From Crossaster papposus (lineage: Eukaryota > Echinodermata > Asteroidea > Velatida > Solasteridae), in the NCBI GenBank assembly GCA_037893245.1, contig JBAIAA010000697.1, forward strand, positions 62,001-126,000: a stretch of DNA of 64,000 bases, given 5' to 3'. Made by a program: the position numbers and the translations under genes. How positions within the stretch are numbered: the first letter of the stretch is position 1; the number at the start of each line of letters is the position of its first letter. Below, one piece after another: positions 13,895 to 60,829 of the stretch. Below the pieces are notes generated by a model. That model made no database searches. It saw only the letters and a program-made list of their open reading frames with translations, and had not been told where the DNA came from.

Positions 13895-14158
13895 GTCCAC
13901 CATCTCCGCAAGCAGTCGAAGCCCATGTCCGACAAAGTGGCTGGGCGTGTCGCGAGCCGCCGGGTCCCACCCCAACCGCAGCAGCCAGACGGGGTTGCGA
14001 AGACCAACGGACCAGCACCCTCGCTGCAGGCCGTCACGGCAGCGCGCCGCAAACACCCGCTGAGCGCCGCGACTCAGAAGAGACGGCACGAGCGGAAGGG
14101 GACTAGCGAGTACTCTTCTAAGGCCGCTAAGCAGAAGTGGATGCAAATTGAGAGAAGG
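13895..14158 (+). CDS. KIF21: KIF21 exon: MSDKVAGRV linker
   Basis: 264-nt exon (88 codons), phase 0. It encodes VHHLRKQSKPMSDKVAGRVA, a low-complexity Pro/Gln/Ala linker, and SSKAAKQKWMQIERR. RPMSDKVAGKV and the xARMKWQLLERR ending are KIF21 signatures. The last 11 nt of this exon and its donor (gagagaagg|gtacggg) form part of the 59-bp unit repeated 12 times immediately downstream. Confidence 0.95.
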
Positions 14159-14860
14159 GTACGGGATCCACTTGTGCCTCCTTGTTATGTTTTTTTTGGC
14201 AATCTTTTTGAGAGAAGTGTACGGGATCCACTTGTGCCTCCTTGTTATGTTTTTTTGGCAATATTTTTGAGAGAAGGGTACGGGATCCACTTGTGCCTCC
14301 TTGTTATGTTTTTTTGGCAATCTTTTTGAAAGAAGGGTACGGGATCCACTTGTGCCTCCTTGTTATGTTTTTTTGTCAATCTTTTTGAGAAAAGGGTACG
14401 GGATCCACTTGTGCCTCCTTGTTATTTTTTTTTGGCAATCTTTTGGAGAGAAGTGTACGGGATCCACTTGTGCCTCCTTGTTATGTTTTTTTGGCAATCT
14501 TTTTGAGAGAAGGGTACGGGATCCACTTGTGCCTCCTTGTTATGTTTTTTTGGCAATCTTTTTGAGAGAAGGGTACGGGATCCACTTGTGCCTCCTTGTT
14601 ATTTTTTTTTGGCAATCTTTTGGAGAGAAGTGTACGGGATCCACTTGTGCCTCCTTGTTATGTTTTTTTGGCAATCTTTTTGAGAGAAGGGTACGGGATC
14701 CACTTGTGCCTCCTTGTTATGTTTTTTTGGCAATCTTTTTGAGAGAAGGGTACGGGACCCACTTGTGCCTCCTTGTTATTTCTTTGGGGGTAATCTTTTT
14801 GAGAGAAGGGTACGGGATCCACTTGTGCCTTCTTGTTATTTTTTTGGGGCAATCTTTACG
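14152..14860 (+). repeat. 59-bp tandem array carrying the exon end and donor
   Basis: About 12 copies of gtacgggatccacttgtgcc + tccttgttatg + T tract + ggcaatctttttgagagaagg. The first copy starts inside the KIF21 exon (exon end gagagaagg, then gt), so each unit repeats the 11-nt exon end and the donor. ORFs of up to 200 codons here are artefacts. Confidence 0.95.
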
Positions 14861-15562: not shown

Positions 15563-15823
15563 GTGACCGACATAGTGAACAGACGACAGACTATCACTCA
15601 CATGGAGCGCGACATGGAACGCTACCTCCACCACCGACAGCGGCTCGGCAAGAAACGGGAGAAGACCTTCCATCGACGGGACGAGGCCATCCGAGCCGGG
15701 AAAGATGCCACGGCGATTGCGGAGCTGAACGACCAGATCGACGGGATGAACGCCAATATTGAATACGTGCAGGAACAGATCACGGAATGCCAGGCTAATA
15801 TCATGGAAGTCATGGAAGGAAAG
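15563..15823 (+). CDS. KIF21: KIF21 exon: autoinhibitory coiled coil
   Basis: 261-nt exon (87 codons), phase 0. It encodes VTDIVNRRQTITHMERDMER, YLHHRQRLGKKREKTFHRRD and EQITECQANIMEVMEGK. The matching vertebrate segment is the intramolecular antiparallel coiled coil that represses the motor and where KIF21A eye-muscle fibrosis mutations cluster (family knowledge). Donor AAG|gtaagg is strong. The final ~60 nt plus donor are tandemly copied downstream with an exact 88-bp period. Confidence 0.95.
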
Positions 15824-16466
15824 GTAAGGCATTACTGACTCCGATATTGAATATGTTCAGGAACAGATTACAGAATGCCAGGCTAATATCATGGAAGTCA
15901 TGGAAGGAAAGGTAAGGCATTACGAACTCCGATATTGAATATGTTCAGGAACAGATAATGGAATGCCAGGCTAATATCATGGAAGTCATGGAAGGAAAGG
16001 TAAGGCATTACGAACTCCGATATTGAATATGTTCAGGAACAGATCACGGAATGCCAGGCTAATATCATGGAAGTCATGGAAGGAAAGGTAAGGCATTACG
16101 GACTCTGATATTGAATATGTTCAGGAACGGATCACGGAATGCCTGGCTAATATCATGGAAGTCATGGAAGGAAAGGTAAGGCATTACGGACTCCGATATT
16201 GAATATGTTCAGGAACAGATCACGGAATGCCTGGCTAATATCATGGAAGTCATGGAAGGAAAGGTAAGGCATTACGGACTCTGATATTGAATATGTTCAG
16301 GAACGGATAACGGAATGCCTGGCTAATATCATGGAAGTCATGGAAGGAAAGGTAAGGCATTACGGACTCCGATATTGAATATGTTCAGGAACGGATCACG
16401 GAATGCCAGGCTAATATCATGGAAGTCATGGAAGGAAAGGTAAGGCATTACGGACTCCGATATTGA
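15762..16466 (+). repeat. 88-bp tandem array carrying exon end and donor
   Basis: GT of the donor gaaag|gtaaggcattac occurs at 15,824, 15,912, 16,000, 16,088, 16,176, 16,264, 16,352 and 16,440: eight donors exactly 88 bp apart. Each unit repeats about 60 nt of the KIF21 exon (gaacagatcacggaatgcca through gtcatggaaggaaag) plus 28 nt of intron. In each, tatgttcag precedes the 51-nt exon piece and could act as an acceptor. Reading through any donor meets a stop within ten codons. Confidence 0.97.
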
Positions 16467-20489: not shown

Positions 20490-20591
20490 GATGAGGTGGA
20501 TGCTGGTGATGCCGCAGCGGTCATCGACACCTGCGGCTTGCAAGAGGCAAAGTATATGCTGGAACACTTCCTGCAGTTCACTATCAATAAG
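20490..20591 (+). CDS. KIF21: KIF21 exon: AVIDTCGLQEAKYMLEHFL
   Basis: 102-nt exon, phase 0. It encodes DEVDAGDAAAVIDTCGLQEA then KYMLEHFLQFTINK, matching the [23 protein letters not shown] block of KIF21. Acceptor tttgacccgcag, donor AAG|gtagaa. Confidence 0.95.
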
Positions 20592-21928: not shown

Positions 21929-22030
21929 GTCAGTTTGGACTTTTAACGCGAAAACAATAGTGCATTTGTGACCTGCTCCCACAAAACCAAAAATAAGTGT
22001 TTTTTTTTTTTTTTGGAAGAAGATCTTTTT

Positions 22031-22414
22031 AAAGGTAGGATACACCATTGGTAATTGCTTGAATTGTCATGAATGTGTGGATTTGGGGGTTGTATCTTAT
22101 AGTAAATATCGTTTTAACTGACCTATCCAAAGTTTTACAATCATGGATGGCGAATAAAGCACGAAAAACAGCGTTTGTTTGCAACCGGCGTCGAGCAGTT
22201 ATTCTTATGTTATTTGTGTTTTTTCGCGATCGCCGTCCGGCGATCACAAATTTTTCTTTATAAAATTCAATTTTTCAGAATAATTACAGGATATCTAGCG
22301 CAATCATTTTGCTGGATGCCTAGAATAATTATTTACTTTCAGATGAGTAAGATATTTCTTAATAATTTGGTAGTAAAACTTTTCAAAAATCTGCAAATGG
22401 TGTATCCTACCTTT
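22031..22414 (+). mobile_element. GTAGGATACACC MITE, full length
   Basis: aaaggtaggatacaccattg to aaatggtgtatcctaccttt, 384 bp; centre has the small palindrome gatcgccgtccggcgatc. Confidence 0.92.
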
Positions 22415-28837: not shown

Positions 28838-28905
28838 GCAAGGAGTGGATTCAAACTGTGAACGTTTAACAATTGTCGACTATGACATTATTAACATTAT
28901 TAAAA

Positions 28906-29220
28906 AACTCTCATAGAGCAAGGGTTAATCAGTTCTCTGGTAATGCAAAGAATCCTCCAATGCTCTGCAGCTGGAGTGCTTTGGCCTGTACCACTGTCTT
29001 GCAGTAAACAACTCTCATAGAGCAAGGGTTAATCAGTTCTCTGGTAATGCAAAGAATCCTCCAATGCTCTGCAGCTGGAGTGCATTGGCCTGTACCACTG
29101 ACTTGCAGTAAACAACTCTCATAGAGCAAGGGTTAATCAGTTCTCTGGTAATGCAAAGAATCTTCCAATGCTCCGCAGCTGGAGTGCATTGGCCTGTACC
29201 ACTGCTATGCAATAAACAAC
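28906..29220. repeat. 104-bp tandem repeat, 3 copies
   Basis: Starts at 28,906, 29,010 and 29,114 (aactctcatagagcaagggt), each with gctctgcagctggagtgc. Begins about 70 bp after the KIF21 exon with the GC donor. Confidence 0.95.
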
Positions 29221-29326
29221 TCTCGTAGGGTTAATAGTGGATAAGGCACAGAGCGGGGATAGATACCATTGGCAAAATTCTCTGTTTTGAGTTTATCACG
29301 TGCGTTGTTCTTTCCCATCCATGTAG

Positions 29327-33061: not shown

Positions 33062-33855
33062 CGAAACCAAGGATCCTTCAAAAGCGCTCTAGGCACTGTA
33101 GCTCACAAGCCTGAAGAAACCTGTAGAGAGAAGACAACGAGAAGGTACATGAAACCAAGGATCTCTCAAAAAGTGCCCTAGGCACTGTAGCTCGTGGGCC
33201 TGAAGAAACCTGTAGAGAGAAGACAATAAGAAGGTACATGAAACCAAGGATCCCTCAAAAAGTGCCCTAGGCACTGTAGCTCGTAGGCCTGAAGAAACCT
33301 GTAGAGAGAAGACAATGAGAAGGTACATGAAACCAAGGATCCCTCAAAGGCGCTCTAGGTACTGTAGCTCTTAGGCCTGAAGAAACCTGTAGAGAGAAGA
33401 CAATGAGAAGGTACATGAAACCAAGGATCTCTCAAAAAGTGCCCTAGGTACTGTAGCTCACAAGCCTGAAGAAACCTGCAGAGAGAAGACAATGAGAAGG
33501 TACATGAAACCAAGGATCCCTCAAAGGCGCTCTAGGTACTGTAGCTTGCAAGCCTAAAGAAACCTGTAGAGAGAAGACAATGAGAAGGTACATGAAACCA
33601 AGGATCCCTCAAAAGCGCTCTAGGCACTGTAGCTTGCAAGCCTGAAGAAACCTGTAGAGAGAAGACAATGAGAAGGTACATGAAACCAAGGATTCATCAA
33701 AGGCGCTCTAGGTACTGTAGCTCACAAGCCTGAAGAAACCTGTAGAGAGAAGACAATGAGAAGGTACATGAAACCAAGGATCCCTCAAAGGCGCTCTAGG
33801 CACTGTAGCTCGTAAGCCTGAAGAAACCTGTAGAGAGAAGACAATGAGAAGAAGG
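33062..33855. repeat. 89-bp tandem array, 9 copies
   Basis: Unit gaaaccaaggatccctcaaa + ggcgctctaggcactgtagc + tcacaagcctgaagaaacct + gtagagagaagacaatgaga + aggtacat. Starts 50 bp after the first WD40 exon donor. Confidence 0.95.
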
Positions 33856-39465: not shown

Positions 39466-40021
39466 GTAATTGACCATTTGCGTGTGGAATTTAAATAATA
39501 TCTGGTACACTGACTTGTACATACAGTCGTGAACCACATAACGACCGAGGATCGATATTGTGTTTTCCTTTACTATACCCTAACCCCATTACTTAGCGCT
39601 TGCCCCAACGATCGAGGACCGAATTCGGACAAGCAAACCGTCCTTCGAGGATCCTTTGTTCCCTTTGTTCTCTTTTGTGTTTCGATCGTAATACGATACA
39701 AAAACACACAGCTTGGGACAGTTTGACTTTAAATTATCCAGACCAAATACACTGTTGCTATATCACGTGATTCGGGGCAAGCTCTTACATAGTTACGTTA
39801 GAGACGCTCTGCACCAATACATTGTTCACAATGGTTGAGAATGGTACAAAGACACCAGACCATTCCAGAGCCGGGGGTTGCTAGCGTAAGGCTTGCCCCG
39901 AATCACGTGATATAGCAACAGTGTATTTGGTCTGGAGAATTTAAATGTAAACTGTGCCAAGCTGTGTGAACAAGTCAGTGTACCAGATATTATTCAAATT
40001 CCACACGCAAATGGCCAATTG
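39466..40021. mobile_element. CCATTTGCG fold-back MITE inside the 54-bp array
   Basis: Ends aattgaccatttgcgtgtgg and cacacgcaaatggccaattg. Itself interrupted at 39,529-39,706 by the AACGACCGAGGATCG element: three levels of nesting. Confidence 0.9.
39529..39706. mobile_element. AACGACCGAGGATCG element, inverted copy
   Basis: gtcgtgaaccacataacgac to cgatcgtaatacgatacaa; inverse of 23,625-23,812. Confidence 0.85.
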
Positions 40022-41165
40022 CTAGAATTATCAGGAATGGGTGGATGTAAAGGTAGGATACATCATTGGTAATTGCTTGAATTATCAGGAATGGGTGGAT
40101 GTAAAGGTAGGATACACCATTGGTAATTGCTTGAATTATCAGGAATGGGTGGATGTAAAGGTAGGATACACCATTGGTAATTGCTTGAATTATCAGGAAT
40201 GGGTGGATGTAAAGGTAGGATACACCATTGGTAATTGCTTGTATTATTACGAATGGGTGGATGTAAAGGTAGGATACGCCATTGGTAATTGCTTGAATTA
40301 TCAGGAATGGTTGGATGTAAAGGTAGGATACACCATTGGTAATTGCTTGAATTATCAGGAATGGGTGGATGTAAAGGTAGGAGACACCATTGGTAATTGC
40401 TTGAATTATCAGGAATGGGTGGATGTAAAGGTAGGATAGACCATTAATAATTGCTTGAATTATCAGGAATGGGTGGATGTAAAGGTAGGATACACCATTG
40501 GTAATTGCTTGAATTATCAGGAATGGGTGGATGTAAAGGTAGGACACACCATTGGTAATTGCTTGAATTATCAGGAATGGGTGGATGTAAAGGTAGGATA
40601 CACCATTGGTAATTGCTTGTATTATTACGAATGGGTGGATGTAAAGGTAGGATACGCCATTGGTAATTGCTTGAATCATCAGGAATGGTTGGATGTAAAG
40701 GTAGGATACACCATTGGTAATTGCTTGAATTATCAGGAATGGGTGGATGTAAAGGTAGGAGACACCATTGGTAATTGCTTGAATTATCAGGAATGGGTGG
40801 ATGTAAAGGTAGGATAGACCATTAGTAATTGCTTGAATTATCAGGAATGGGTGGATGTAAAGGTAGGATACACCATTGGTAATTGCTTGAATTATCAGGA
40901 ATGGGTGGATGTAAAGGTAGGATACACCATTGGTAATTGCTTGAAATATCAGGAATGGGTGGATAAAAAGGTAGGATACACTATTGGTAATTGCTTGAAA
41001 TATCAGGAATGGGTGGATAAAAAGGTAGGATACACTATTGGTAATTGCTTGAATTATCAGGAATGGGTGGATGAAAAGGTAGGATACACTATTGGTAATT
41101 GCTTGAATTATCAGGAATGGGTGGATGTAAAGGTAGGATACACTATTGGTAATTGAATTATCAGA

Positions 41166-53636: not shown

Positions 53637-55289
53637 CTCTGTACTGCCCCAAACCGCCCTGCCTGTTACTCCCAGTACTGCCCCAAACCGCCCTGCCTGT
53701 TACTCCCTGTACTGCCCAAAACTCGCCCTGCCTGTTACTCCCTGCCTGTTACTCCCTGTACTACCCCAAACCTCTCTGCCTGTACTGCCCCAAACCACCC
53801 TGCCTGTACTGCCCCAAACCACCCTGCCTGTTACTCCCTGTACTGCCCCAAACCACCCTGCCTGCTACTCCCTGTACTGCCCCAAACCTCTCTGCCTGTA
53901 CTGCCCCCAAACCACCCTGCCTGTTACTCCCTGTACTGCCCCAAACCACCCTGCCTGTACTGCCCCAAACCACCCTGCCTGTACTGCCCCAAACAACCCT
54001 GCCTGTTACTCCCTGTACTGCCCCAAACCACCCTGCCTGCTACTCCCTGTACTGCCCCAAACCTCTCTGCCTGTACTGCCCCCAAACCACCCTGCCTGCT
54101 ACTCCCTGTACTGCCCCAAACCACCCTGCCTGTTACTCCCTGTACTTCCCCAAACCTCCCTGCCTGTACTGCCCCAAACCACCCTGCCTGTTACTCCATG
54201 TACTGCCCCCAAACCACCCTGCCTGCTACTCCCTGTACTGCCCCAAACCACCCTGCCCCTTACTCTCAGTACTGCCCCAAACCACCCTGCCTGCTACTCC
54301 ATGTACTGCCCCAAACCACCCTGCCTGTACTGCCCCAAACCGCCTTGCCTGTTACTCCATGTACTGCCCCAAACCACCCTGCCTGTTACTCCCTGTACTG
54401 CCCCAAACAGCCCTGTCTGTTACTCCCTGTACTGCCCCAAACCCCCCTGCCTGTTACTTCCTGTACTGCCCCCAAACCGCCCTGCCTGTTACTCCCTGTA
54501 CTGCCCCCAAACCGCCCTGCCTGTTACTCCCTGTACTGCCCCAAACCGCCCTGCCTGTTACTCCCTGTACTGCCCCAAACCGCCCTGCCTGTTACTCCCT
54601 GTACTGCCCTAAACCGCCCTGCCTGTTACTTCCTGTACTGCCCCAAACCGCCCTGCCTGTTACTCCCTGTACTGCCACAAACCGCCCTGCCTGTTACTCC
54701 CTGTACTGCCCCAAACCGCCCTGCCTGTTACTCCCTGTACTGACCCAAACCGCCCTGCCTGTTACTCCCTGTACTGCCCCAAACCGCCCTGCCTGTTACT
54801 CCCTGTACTGCCCCAAACCGCCCTGCCTGTTACTCCCTGTACTGCCCCAAACCACCCTGCCTGTTACTCCCTATACTGCCTCAAACCACCCTGTCTTTTA
54901 CTCCCTGTACTGCCCCAAACCACCCTGCCTGCTACTCCCTGTACTGCCCCAAACCGCCCTGTCTGTTACTCCATGTACTGCCCCAAACCGCCCTGTCTGT
55001 TACTCCATGTACTGCCCCAAACAGCCCGACCTGTTACTCCATGTACTGCCCCAAACCACCCTGCCTGTTACTCCATGTACTGCCCCAAACCGCCCTGCCT
55101 GCTACCCCCTGTACTGCCCCAAACCACCCTGCCTGCTACTCCCTGTACTGCATCAAAAAACACCTTGCCTGTTACTCCCTGTACTGCCCCAAACCGCCCT
55201 GCCTGTTGCTCCCTGTACTGCCCTAAACCACCCTGTCTGTTACTCCCTGTACTGCCCTGCCTGTTACTGCCTGTGCTGCCCTAAACCAC
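53637..55289. repeat. 34-bp minisatellite, left block, about 48 copies
   Basis: Unit ctgcctgttactccctgtac + tgccccaaaccgcc. 34 is not divisible by three and the unit has no stop on the + strand, so all frames stay open (up to 566 codons) reading LPVTPCTAPNRPACYSLYCP-type peptide. Intron of the discoidin gene. Confidence 0.97.
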
Positions 55290-55618: not shown

Positions 55619-55894
55619 TTAAAGTTGTATATGGCATTTGGTAAAAAAGGAATTTTTGAACCTGTTTGTTTTTAGACTTAACTGACGAATTCTACCCGAT
55701 TTATTTGTAACAATTAATGGGTTGAGAGGATGTGTGCCGTCAGACAAAACACAGTTGAACTTGTTCATGAGACTCCTTTGAACCAACACCTGAAGGCTCT
55801 CATTACCATCACCTATAATCCTATCTGCACGTTTCACAATACGTTCCAGTTTCTTCCGGTTGTTAACAGTGAGCGAGTTAATTAAACCAAGCAA
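55619..55894 (-). pseudogene. LINE ORF2 C-terminal part after frameshift
   Basis: Continuation of the reverse transcriptase ORF. NNRKKLERIVKRADRIIGDG and LxPLIVTNKSGRIRQLSLKT NRFKNSFF match the usual C-terminus of this LINE group, ending 300 nt before the pentamer tail. Confidence 0.8.
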
Positions 55895-57047
55895 TAGAAC
55901 AGAAAGTTAACAACGATTGAATTGTGCTCTGGTAAAACAATTTTAAGATCCGGGTGTTTACATTAAAGGATTTCAGTTTCCTCACAAAATGTAACCGCTG
56001 ATTAGCTTTTTTGTAAACTGTTGTGGTGTTAGAATTCCAGTTTAACTGATTGTCAACCACAGTTCCTAGGTACTTGTACTCATTAACTACTTCAACAGGC
56101 ACATCATTAATTGGTACAGATTGCACAGTTTGTTTGTTCTTTTGAAAATTAAAAAACATTTCTTTATTTTTTTGCACATTGATGATCAAATGATTTTCAG
56201 CACACCAATTAACAAACCGATCAATGTTACTTCTATAGTCCAATTCATCATTGTCAGTTATCAGTCCTGTCAACACAGTATCGTCAGCGTATTTAACCAA
56301 AACACACGAGTCACTGTGTACATTAAAATCACTTGTAAATAAGGAAAACAAAAGAGGCGACAGAACACAACCCTGGGGAACTCCAGTACTTAAATATGTA
56401 ATATCGGAGCTAACACCAGTTACTCTGACCCTCTGTGGTCGTTGGAGTAAGAAGTTATTAATCCAAAGAGAGAGGTGTGGGTTAACATTCAAATAATTCA
56501 ATTTGTGCAAAAGAGCCGGAGGTCTAATGGTATTAAACGCAGAGGAGAAATCAATAAATAAAGCACGAACGTAGGACTTACAGGTATCAAGATGACTATA
56601 AATATTATGCAACAAAGTTATTATTGCGTCATCCACACCACGGTGAGCACGATACGCAAATTGAAATGGGTCCGTTGCCTCTCGTGTTTCATCAAGCAAG
56701 AAATCTTTAACAATTCTCTCAAAGCATTTCATCACAATAGATGTGAGGACAACTGGCCTGTAATCATTGAGAACAGCTGGCTTGGGTTTTTTGGGGATTG
56801 GACTAATTATGGAGGATTTCCATATTTTAGGAACTATGTGAGTGTCCAAAGACCATTGAAATAACCGCTGAAAGATACCTGCAAGTTCTTTGTAACATGC
56901 TTTCAGAGTCCTACCAGATATCCCATCTGGGCCGACAGCTTTGTTTGTTTTAATAGATTTAAATACCTTTTCGACTTGAAAGGATGCAAGAACAATGTTA
57001 TCATTTATACTTCCTTGGGAGGCTAAATCTGCCTGTACTGTACACAA
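55878..57047 (-). pseudogene. LINE reverse transcriptase fragment
   Basis: 389-codon open frame. Landmarks: AVGPDGISGRTLK (about 37-49), LNDYRPVVLTSIVMKCFERI (93-112), FIDFSSAFNTI (164-174, RT domain A), TGVPQGCVLSPLLF (221-234, domain B) and YADD (253-256, catalytic domain C), so the polymerase core is intact. The frame breaks after LLTFCSIAWFN, and the natural continuation (LTVNNRKKLERIVKRADRII) is in another frame at 55,894-55,619. One frameshift plus loss of the N-terminal endonuclease makes it inactive. Confidence 0.9.
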
Positions 57048-57052
57048 ATCTG

Positions 57053-59661
57053 TACACCCTGCCTGTTACTCCCTGTACTTCCACAAACCACCCTGCCTGT
57101 TACTCCCTATACTGCCTCAAACCAGCCTGCCTGTTACTCCCTGTACTGCCCCAAACCACCCTGCCTGTTACTCCCTGTACTTCCACAAACCACCCTGCCT
57201 GTTACTCCCTGTACTTCCACAAACCACCCTGCCTGTTACTCCCTGTACTTCCACAAACCACCCTGCCTGTTACTCCCTATACTGCCTCAAACCAGCCTGC
57301 CTGTTACTCCCTGTACTGCCCCAAACCACCCTGCCTGTTACTCCCTGTACTTCCACAAACCACCCTGCCTGTTACTCCCTGTACTTCCACAAACCACCCT
57401 GCCTGTTACTCCCTGTACTTCCACAAACCACCCTGCCTGTTACTCCCTATACTGCCTCAAACCAGCCTGCCTGTTACTCCCTGTACTGCCCCAAACCACC
57501 CTGCCTGTTACTCCCTGTACTGCCCCAAACCACCCTGCCTGTTACTCCCTATACTGCCTCAAACCAGCCTGCCTGTTACTCCCTGTACTGCCCCAAACCA
57601 CCCTGCCTGTTACTCCCTGTACTGCCCCAAACCACCCTGCCTGTTACTCCCTGTACTTCCACAAACCACCCTGCCTGTTACTCCCTGTACTTCCACAAAC
57701 CACCCTGCCTGTTACTCCCTATACTGCCTCAAACCAGCCTGCCTGTTACTCCCTGTACTGCCCCAAACCACCCTGCCTGTTACTCCCTGTACTGCCCCAA
57801 ACCACCCTGCCTGTTACTCCCTATACTGCCCCAAACCGCCCTGCCTGTTACTCCCTGTACTGCCCCAAACCACCCTGCTTGTGACTCCCTGTACTGCCCC
57901 AAACCACTCTCCCAGTTACTCCCTGTACTGCCCCAAACTGCCCTGCCTGTTACTCCCTGTACTGCCCCAAACCACCCTGCCTGTTACTCCCTATACTGCC
58001 CCAAACCGCCCTGCCTGTTACTCCCTGTACTGCCCCAAACCACCCTGCTTGTGACTCCCTGTACTGCCCCAAACCACCCTGCCTGTTACTCCCTATACTG
58101 CCTCAAACCAGCCTGCCTGTTACTCCCTGTACTGCCCCAAACCACCCTGCCTGTTACTCCCTGTACTTCCACAAACCACCCTGCCTGTTACTCCCTATAC
58201 TGCCTCAAACCAGCCTGCCTGTTACTCCCTGTACTGCCCCAAACCACCCTGCCTGTTACTCCCTGTACTGCCCCAAACCACCCTGCCTGTTACTCCCTAT
58301 ACTGCCCCAAACCGCCCTGCCTGTTACTCCCTGTACTGCCCCAAACCACCCTGCTTGTGACTCCCTGTACTGCCCCAAACCACTCTCCCAGTTACTCCCT
58401 GTACTGCCCCAAACTGCCCTGCCTGTTACTCCCTGTACTGCCCCAAACCACCCTGCCTGTTACTCCCTGTACTGCCCCAAACCACCCTGCCTGTTACTCC
58501 CTGTACTTCCACAAACCACCCTGCCTGTTACTCCCTGTACTTCCACAAAACACCCTGCCTGTTACTCCCTATACTGCCTCAAACCACCCTGTCTGTTACT
58601 CCCTGTACTGCCCCAAACCACCCTGCCTGTTACTCCCTGTACTGCCCCAAACCACCCTGCCTGTTACTCCCTGTACTGCCCCAAACCACCCTGCCTGTTA
58701 CTCCCTGTACTGCCCCAAACCACCCTGCCTGTTACTCCCTGTACTTCCACAAAACACCCTGCCTGTTACTCCCTATACTGCCTCAAACCACCCTGTCTGT
58801 TACTCCCTGTACTGCCCCAAACCACCCTGCCTGTTACTCCCTGTACTGCCCCAAACCACCCTGCTTGTGACTCCCTGTACTGCCCCAAACCACTCTCCCA
58901 GTTACTCCCTGTACTGCCCCAAACTGCCCTGCCTGTTACTCCCTGTACTGCCCCAAACCACCCTGCCTGTTACTCCCTGTACTGCCTCAAACCGCCCTGC
59001 CTGTTACTCCCTGTACTGCCCCAAACCACCCTGCTTGTGACTCCCTGTACTGCCCCAAACCACTCTCCCAGTTACTCCCTGTACTGCCCCAAACCACTCT
59101 CCCAGTTACTCCCTGTACTGCCCCAAACTGCCCTGCCTGTTACTCCCTGTACTGCCCCAAACCACCCTGCCTGTTACTCCCTGTACTGCCCCAAACCACC
59201 CTGCCTGTTACTCCCTGTACTTCCACAAACCACCCTGCCTGTTACTCCCTGTACTTCCACAAAACACCATGCCTGTTACTCCCTATACTGCCTCAAACCA
59301 CCCTGTCTGTTACTCCCTGTACTGCCCCAAACCACCCTGCCTGTTACTCCCTGTACTGCCCCAAACCACCCTGCCTGTTACTCCCTTTACTGCCCCAAAC
59401 CACCCTGCCTGTTACTCCCTGTACTGCCCCAAACCACCCTGCTTGTGACTCCCTGTACTGCCCCAAACCACTCTCCCAGTTACTCCCTGTACTGCCCCAA
59501 ATCACCCTGCCTGTTACTCCCTGTACTGCCCCAAACCACCCTGCCTGTTACTACCTGTACTGCCCCAAACCACCCTGCCTGTTACTCCCTGTACTGCCCC
59601 AAACCACCCTGCCTGTTACTCCCTATACTGCCTCAAACCACCCTGCCTGTTACTCCCTATA
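57053..59661. repeat. 34-bp minisatellite, middle block with higher-order structure
   Basis: About 76 units. Variants (cttccacaaa, ctatactgcctcaaaccag, cttgtgactcc, actctcccagttac) recur as ordered sets: the cttgtgactcc/actctcccag module begins near 57,870, 58,350, 58,862, 59,034 and 59,430. ORF up to 681 codons is an artefact. Confidence 0.96.
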
Positions 59662-60455: not shown

Positions 60456-60829
60456 TACTGCCTCAAACCACCCTACCTGTTACTCCCTGTACTGCCCAAA
60501 ACCGCCCTTCCTGTTACTCTCTGTACTGCCCCAAACCGCCCTGCCTGTTACTCCCTGTACTGCCCCAAACCACCCTCCCTGTTACTCCATGTACTGCCCC
60601 AAACCACCCTGCCTGTTACTCCATGTACTCCTCCAAACCACCCTGCCTGTTACTCCCTGCAGTGCCTCAAACCACCCTGCATGTTACTCTTAATACTGCC
60701 CCAAACCGCCCTGCCTGTTATTCCCTGTACTACCCCAAACCACCCTACCTGTTACTCCCTGTACTGCCCAAAACCGCCCTTCCTGTTACTCTCTGTACTG
60801 CCCCAAACCGCCCTGTCTGTTACTCTCAG
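60456..60829. repeat. 34-bp minisatellite, right block, about 11 copies
   Basis: Continues the array to the acceptor of the TM6 exon; its last unit, ctgtctgttactctcag, is the splice acceptor. Confidence 0.95.

Follow-up and report, generated by a model that had tools for sequence, protein, structure and literature searches.

A mirage-type minisatellite that copies a 5' splice site in a KIF21 kinesin gene

In a stretch of 64,000 nucleotides (the window), the end of a KIF21 coding exon, its 5' splice site and the beginning of the next intron are repeated in tandem eight times. This 88-bp array is genuine and belongs to a type of repeat already described, the mirage minisatellite. Judged from the DNA, the first donor very probably makes the normal mRNA while the remaining copies are spliced out as part of the intron, the array being mostly tolerated rather than functional. 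We favour this reading because the period and the donors are exact, the same units are found on a second contig, the junction from the first donor is in frame, and reading through that donor leads to a TGA. Further, several other arrays in KIF21 also vary in copy number, and published mirages share both the anatomy and the allelic variation. A calculation of donor accessibility, given below, lowered our confidence slightly.

The repeat unit and its host exon

In a Pfam profile search the greater part of a KIF21-type kinesin gene was recognised in the window, on its plus strand. Exons matching Kinesin, KIF21A_2nd, KIF21A_4th and KIF21A all exceeded the cut-offs and were ordered on one strand, and three exons downstream matched WD40, one of the three above the cut-off. 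By these matches the gene reads as a KIF21 kinesin, the exons for the motor, the KIF21A-type stalk domains, the regulatory coiled coil and the WD40 part following one another in the expected order. The first-pass annotation had placed the array in the exon for the autoinhibitory coiled coil, and the homology searches bore this out. Exon 15563–15823, searched together with part of the next exon, matched PDB 5d3a, the KIF21A regulatory coiled coil (E 1.2e-15), and also PDB 5nfd; against Pfam PF23203 (KIF21A) the exon gave E 1.4e-28. According to the available text of PMC4971492, the crystallised KIF21A construct consists of residues 938–1017, and the 5d3a alignment stops where the exon stops. 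Counted back from the alignment end, the exon's final 17 codons, which are the repeated part, correspond to human KIF21A residues 1001–1017. Consistent with this count, the Cys1006 of the same text lands on an aligned Cys. Three of the six CFEOM1 positions given there, D1001, A1008 and I1010, fall within residues 1001–1017.

TRF described the array as period 88 with 8.1 copies, 96% matches and 0% indels, and in the alignment each unit is made up of the last 60 nt of the KIF21 exon and 28 nt of intron. The sequence GGAAAGGTAAGG is present eight times in the window at 88-bp intervals, which puts donor GTs at 15824 + 88n (n = 0–7), and AAG/GTAAGG (the slash marks the splice position) is found in every unit, eight here and six on the second contig. 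An eightfold exact period is not chance. TRF and the unit alignment thus upheld the earlier description of about 60 nt of exon plus 28 nt of intron with eight donors at this spacing. The eight-unit period stood, but the start of the array did not, as the repeat extends back to 15756 through a 7-mer common to the unit ends. Eleven of the 88 columns vary among units, one of them being the base just beyond the array, and unit 1 differs from all the others by two synonymous changes (TAC/TAT and GTG/GTT) and one intron base. On neither contig does the array contain an N. The coordinates are collected in Table 1.

Table 1. Features of the 88-bp array and its surroundings (window coordinates)
Feature	Position	Strand	Basis or remark
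Second donor-bearing array, 59-bp unit, 12 donors	14148..14857	+	TRF; donors listed
KIF21 regulatory coiled-coil exon	15563..15823	+	87 codons, phase 0 at both ends; acceptor and donor read
88-bp tandem array, 8 units, coding sequence into intron	15756..16466	+	TRF; units aligned
ATATTGA, left (exon) end of unit	15756..15762	+	likely microhomology
Authentic donor, first copy	15824..15825	+	ties for the top score among the gene's 15 mapped donors
In-frame TGA if the first donor is unused	15836..15838	+	read-through of frame
Seven stop-free 51-nt segments	15861..16439	+	first at 15861–15911, the rest at 88-bp steps; a TATGTTCAG pseudo-acceptor precedes each
Seven further identical donors	15912..16441	+	GT at 15912, 16000, 16088, 16176, 16264, 16352, 16440
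ATATTGA, right (intron) end of array	16460..16466	+	ahead of single-copy intron; likely microhomology
Next KIF21 exon	20490..20591	+	phase 0; acceptor expected to pair with donor 15824

In all seven of copies 2–8, as the first-pass annotation had said, an acceptor-like motif, TATGTTCAG, precedes a stop-free segment of 17 codons in phase 0 that runs to a donor; 37 nt separate each donor from the next pseudo-acceptor. At the same place unit 1, the exon itself, has TACGTGCAG.

Two ATATTGA 7-mers lie 88 bp apart, and the simplest origin would be slippage or unequal exchange between them, by which the coding exon end was probably duplicated in tandem together with its 5' splice site and the adjoining 28 nt of intron; a short partial ninth copy, however, could not be distinguished from the shared 7-mer. 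Copy number would later have changed inside the array. From frame and homology, we infer that donor 15824, the first, pairs with acceptor 20490 and that the seven other copies are intronic and excised together with the rest of the intron.

Copy number on two contigs and other arrays of the window

The earlier annotation had singled out copy number for comparison, and it differs between two contigs of one genome, eight units against six. When the genome to which the window belongs (1.02 Gb, 1841 contigs) was searched, the array was found in at least two places, here and on the minus strand of contig C1439, where six donors at exact 88-bp spacing mark six units. These six are identical, with zero differences, to units 1, 2, 3, 4, 5 and 8 of the window. 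Between 15359 and 17522 the sole difference between the contigs is a 176-bp gap, the length of two units; the number of units thus changed across this tract without substitutions. Among the matches listed, the two contigs are collinear for tens of kilobases, and from this collinearity they appear to be two haplotypes, or alleles. It might be asked if the true locus holds one or a few units, the rest being an assembly artefact, since tandem arrays are easily misassembled and the unit number is not the same on the two contigs. This is extremely unlikely, given that the units carry distinct variants (the 11 variable columns) which recur in the same order on C1439.

Other arrays of KIF21 also differed between the window and C1439. 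The copy numbers here and there were 12.0 and 3.7 for the 59-bp array, 5.1 and 6.1 for the 122-bp array, 3.2 and 32.4 for the 104-bp array (28901–29228), and 21.1 and 44.3 for the 54-bp array (40017–41155). The 19-bp array of the gene has 19.4 copies on both contigs. An 88-bp unit at 33063–33851 is present in 8.9 copies here and gave one match on C1439, about 2 kb from the donor near which the array starts; this unit is seen in an expanded and a single form. On the minus strand the 54-bp array contains a long open frame, and another minus-strand frame, at 22029–22274, has a short piece resembling its peptide.

The 59-bp array, absent from the first-pass annotation, is of the same kind as the 88-bp array and lies in the preceding intron. 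It covers the last 11 nt of exon 13895–14158 and repeats that exon's GTACGG donor, which is found 12 times here (three after AGT rather than AGG) and four times on C1439. Two consecutive introns of one gene therefore open with donor-copying arrays. Splice-site-copying repeats on two consecutive introns of a conserved gene are raw material that could give rise to new exons or introns.

The positions of arrays relative to donors were counted for 14 arrays of the KIF21 part, hand-picked from 57 TRF rows with overlapping, mononucleotide and short rows dropped. Five of the 14 array starts lay within 70 nt of one of the 17 mapped donors (p 0.001), the 70-nt limit having been set post hoc so that it just takes in the 88-bp array, and the exon map being incomplete by one more exon near 1950–2068. 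The starts, with distances from the donors, are 11591 (+35), 14148 (−11), 15756 (−68), 28901 (about +62) and 33063 (+51). If the GC-type donor at 28838, which is our own assignment, is left out, the count is 4 of 14 (p 0.007). With a limit of 50 nt it is 2 of 14 (p 0.12), and limits of 100, 150 and 250 nt gave p 0.004–0.006. Only one of the 14 array ends lay within 70 nt of an acceptor. A surplus of arrays at intron 5' ends is possible in this window, and we take it as a lead only; if arrays truly start preferentially near donors, this would be a clue to the birth of minisatellites in this genome.

Further observations concern the right part of the window. An array at 53639 starts 61 nt past donor 53578, that of an exon whose F5/8C match is just below the curated cut-off. 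At 60456–60825 a pyrimidine-rich 34-bp array stops 8 nt ahead of a possible acceptor for an exon from 60834, the frame of which looks receptor-like to the eye and has no match in Pfam. On the minus strand, an open frame at 55878–57065 with an RVT_1 match (E 4.8e-33) marks a LINE-like element between two 34-bp arrays.

Splicing of the repeated donors

Were a later donor used as a plain extension of the exon, the frame would run into the TGA at 15836, and such mRNAs would thus be lost or truncated. With eight identical donors and this TGA on read-through, leaky donor choice can be pictured in which some pre-mRNAs use later donors, carry the TGA and are degraded; the more units, the less KIF21 would be made. 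We regard this as very improbable; according to the available text of PMC3087553, reported mirages leave splicing undisturbed.

The first-pass annotation had likened the downstream copies to tiny exons separated by 37-nt introns. The stop-free phase-0 segments and the eight equal donors agree with that picture, but introns of 37 nt are judged too short for animal splicing, making splicing between adjacent copies unlikely, and the pseudo-acceptor is weak and inherited. Acceptors were scored with a matrix built from the 16 mapped acceptors, these being scored leave-one-out. The TATGTTCAG pseudo-acceptors scored 4.1–4.6, above four to five of the 16 authentic acceptors and in the top 6–8% of 2380 other AGs, and have pyrimidines at 8 of 16 positions, where the authentic acceptors have 7–15. 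The exon's own copy of the motif scored 4.7, which indicates that the pseudo-acceptor was taken over from the exon, where it is the coding CAG/GAA. The acceptor-like motif noted earlier is thus present in the copies, but it is not new. In sum, use of the pseudo-exons appears unlikely.

Skipping one copy gives introns of 125 nt. By such splicing the segments might serve as optional in-frame exons, up to three of them being added with eight units and up to two with six, each bringing 17 residues. Besides the pseudo-acceptor scores and the absence of stops in 7 of 7 segments, some evidence on variation agrees with this proposal. A run of 43 consecutive nucleotides around the donor (within 15720–15850) has the same sequence in every one of the eight units, whereas 11 other columns differ among them; for this run, which was picked post hoc, p is 0.007 for random placement and 0.044 for units 2–8, and neutral drift does not readily predict it. 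Among the distinct changes in the 51-nt segment of units 2–8, three are synonymous and three nonsynonymous, fewer nonsynonymous changes than under neutrality but not significantly so (p 0.059). In Cryptococcus CNN00420, moreover, introns were made by repeat expansion, as the available part of PMC2395259 has it. Nevertheless, we consider optional exons improbable. The motif came from the exon, where it scores higher than in the copies; the pyrimidine tract is weak; nonsynonymous changes (T to M, Q to R and Q to L) do exist; and reported mirages splice normally, as far as the available texts of PMC3087553 and PMC3902484 go.

One consequence of skip-one splicing would bear on the motor. The 51-nt segment encodes 17 residues, that is, two heptads plus three, beyond the end of the crystallised hairpin. 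Unit number would then set the possible number of inserted 17-residue repeats of the autoinhibitory helix end (human 1001–1017, where three of the six CFEOM1 positions lie), and a minisatellite would vary the motor's coiled coil between alleles. We think this very unlikely.

Two candidate mechanisms for the handling of the repeated donors were rejected. Recursive splicing was set aside on inspection, the sequence ahead of each AAG/GTAAGG being purine-rich coding sequence with no pyrimidine tract. RNA structure was not adopted as the chooser of the donor, since later donors can be more accessible than the first and the folding excess shrinks against repeat-keeping shuffles. Against plain shuffles the folding of the array gave z −7.55, with 0 of 20 shuffles as good; against repeat-keeping shuffles the excess was −2.1 for two units and −2.7 for eight. 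Folded singly, units 1–3 gave +0.6 to +0.8 and units 4–8 gave −1.9 to −3.3. In a local folding model the accessibility of the first donor was 0.025, compared with up to 0.12 for later donors. Rfam at gathering thresholds gave 0 matches in the window. Because the donors are identical and the first is not the most accessible, sequence and structure give no reason for a preference for the first donor, which the mirage reading supposes. The locus offers a natural test of donor choice by the spliceosome: eight identical donors stand in cis, and the genome also supplies a version with six for comparison.

Comparison with known systems

Somatic instability has been reported for the Adh3 mirage. The Adh3-type gene found here (8 matched exon pieces) has only repeats of 10–23 bp, without a long boundary array, and one of these repeats begins about 30 nt past a donor. 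A search for the GFP family was empty, and no control genome gave a match either. A literature search, judged mostly by title and with most subscription papers outside its coverage, found no KIF21 mirage.

Intron gain by tandem genomic duplication is said to have occurred in, for example, the potato RdRp gene. As in our array, splice signals were carried along by the duplication; unlike in our array, one duplication made one new intron, whereas here a many-copy array lengthens an existing intron. Cryptococcus CNN00420 is alike in having a splice-signal-bearing repeat whose copy number varies within the population, according to the available part of PMC2395259. Its copies are the gene's introns, whereas here the gaps between adjacent copies are 37 nt and the copies are of putative use only.

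The amphioxus mirages, a precedent that the first-pass annotation did not mention, are known from Adh3, TnC, BflGb6, BflGb9 and PGBD5. In the available text of PMC3087553, mirages are described in BflGb6 and BflGb9, with BflGb6 haplotypes of 6 and 3 units; unit lengths are 150–160 bp and 157 bp, and 10–72 bp for Adh3, and the Adh3 data, like RT-PCR on the globins, point to normal splicing. In PMC3902484, as far as its available text goes, PGBD5 repeats of 60 and 108 bp adjoin 5' splice sites, the copies numbering 2 or 7 and 3 or 6 depending on which of two assembly versions is taken; the TnC mirage is also cited there. These systems and the KIF21 array have in common a repeat that spans the exon–intron boundary, a splice signal within the unit and a copy number that varies between haplotypes or assemblies, the haplotype status of our eight- and six-unit versions resting on collinearity. 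They differ in that here the gene and exon are those of KIF21 and two arrays stand on consecutive introns. If the host is not a lancelet, mirages would reach beyond that group.
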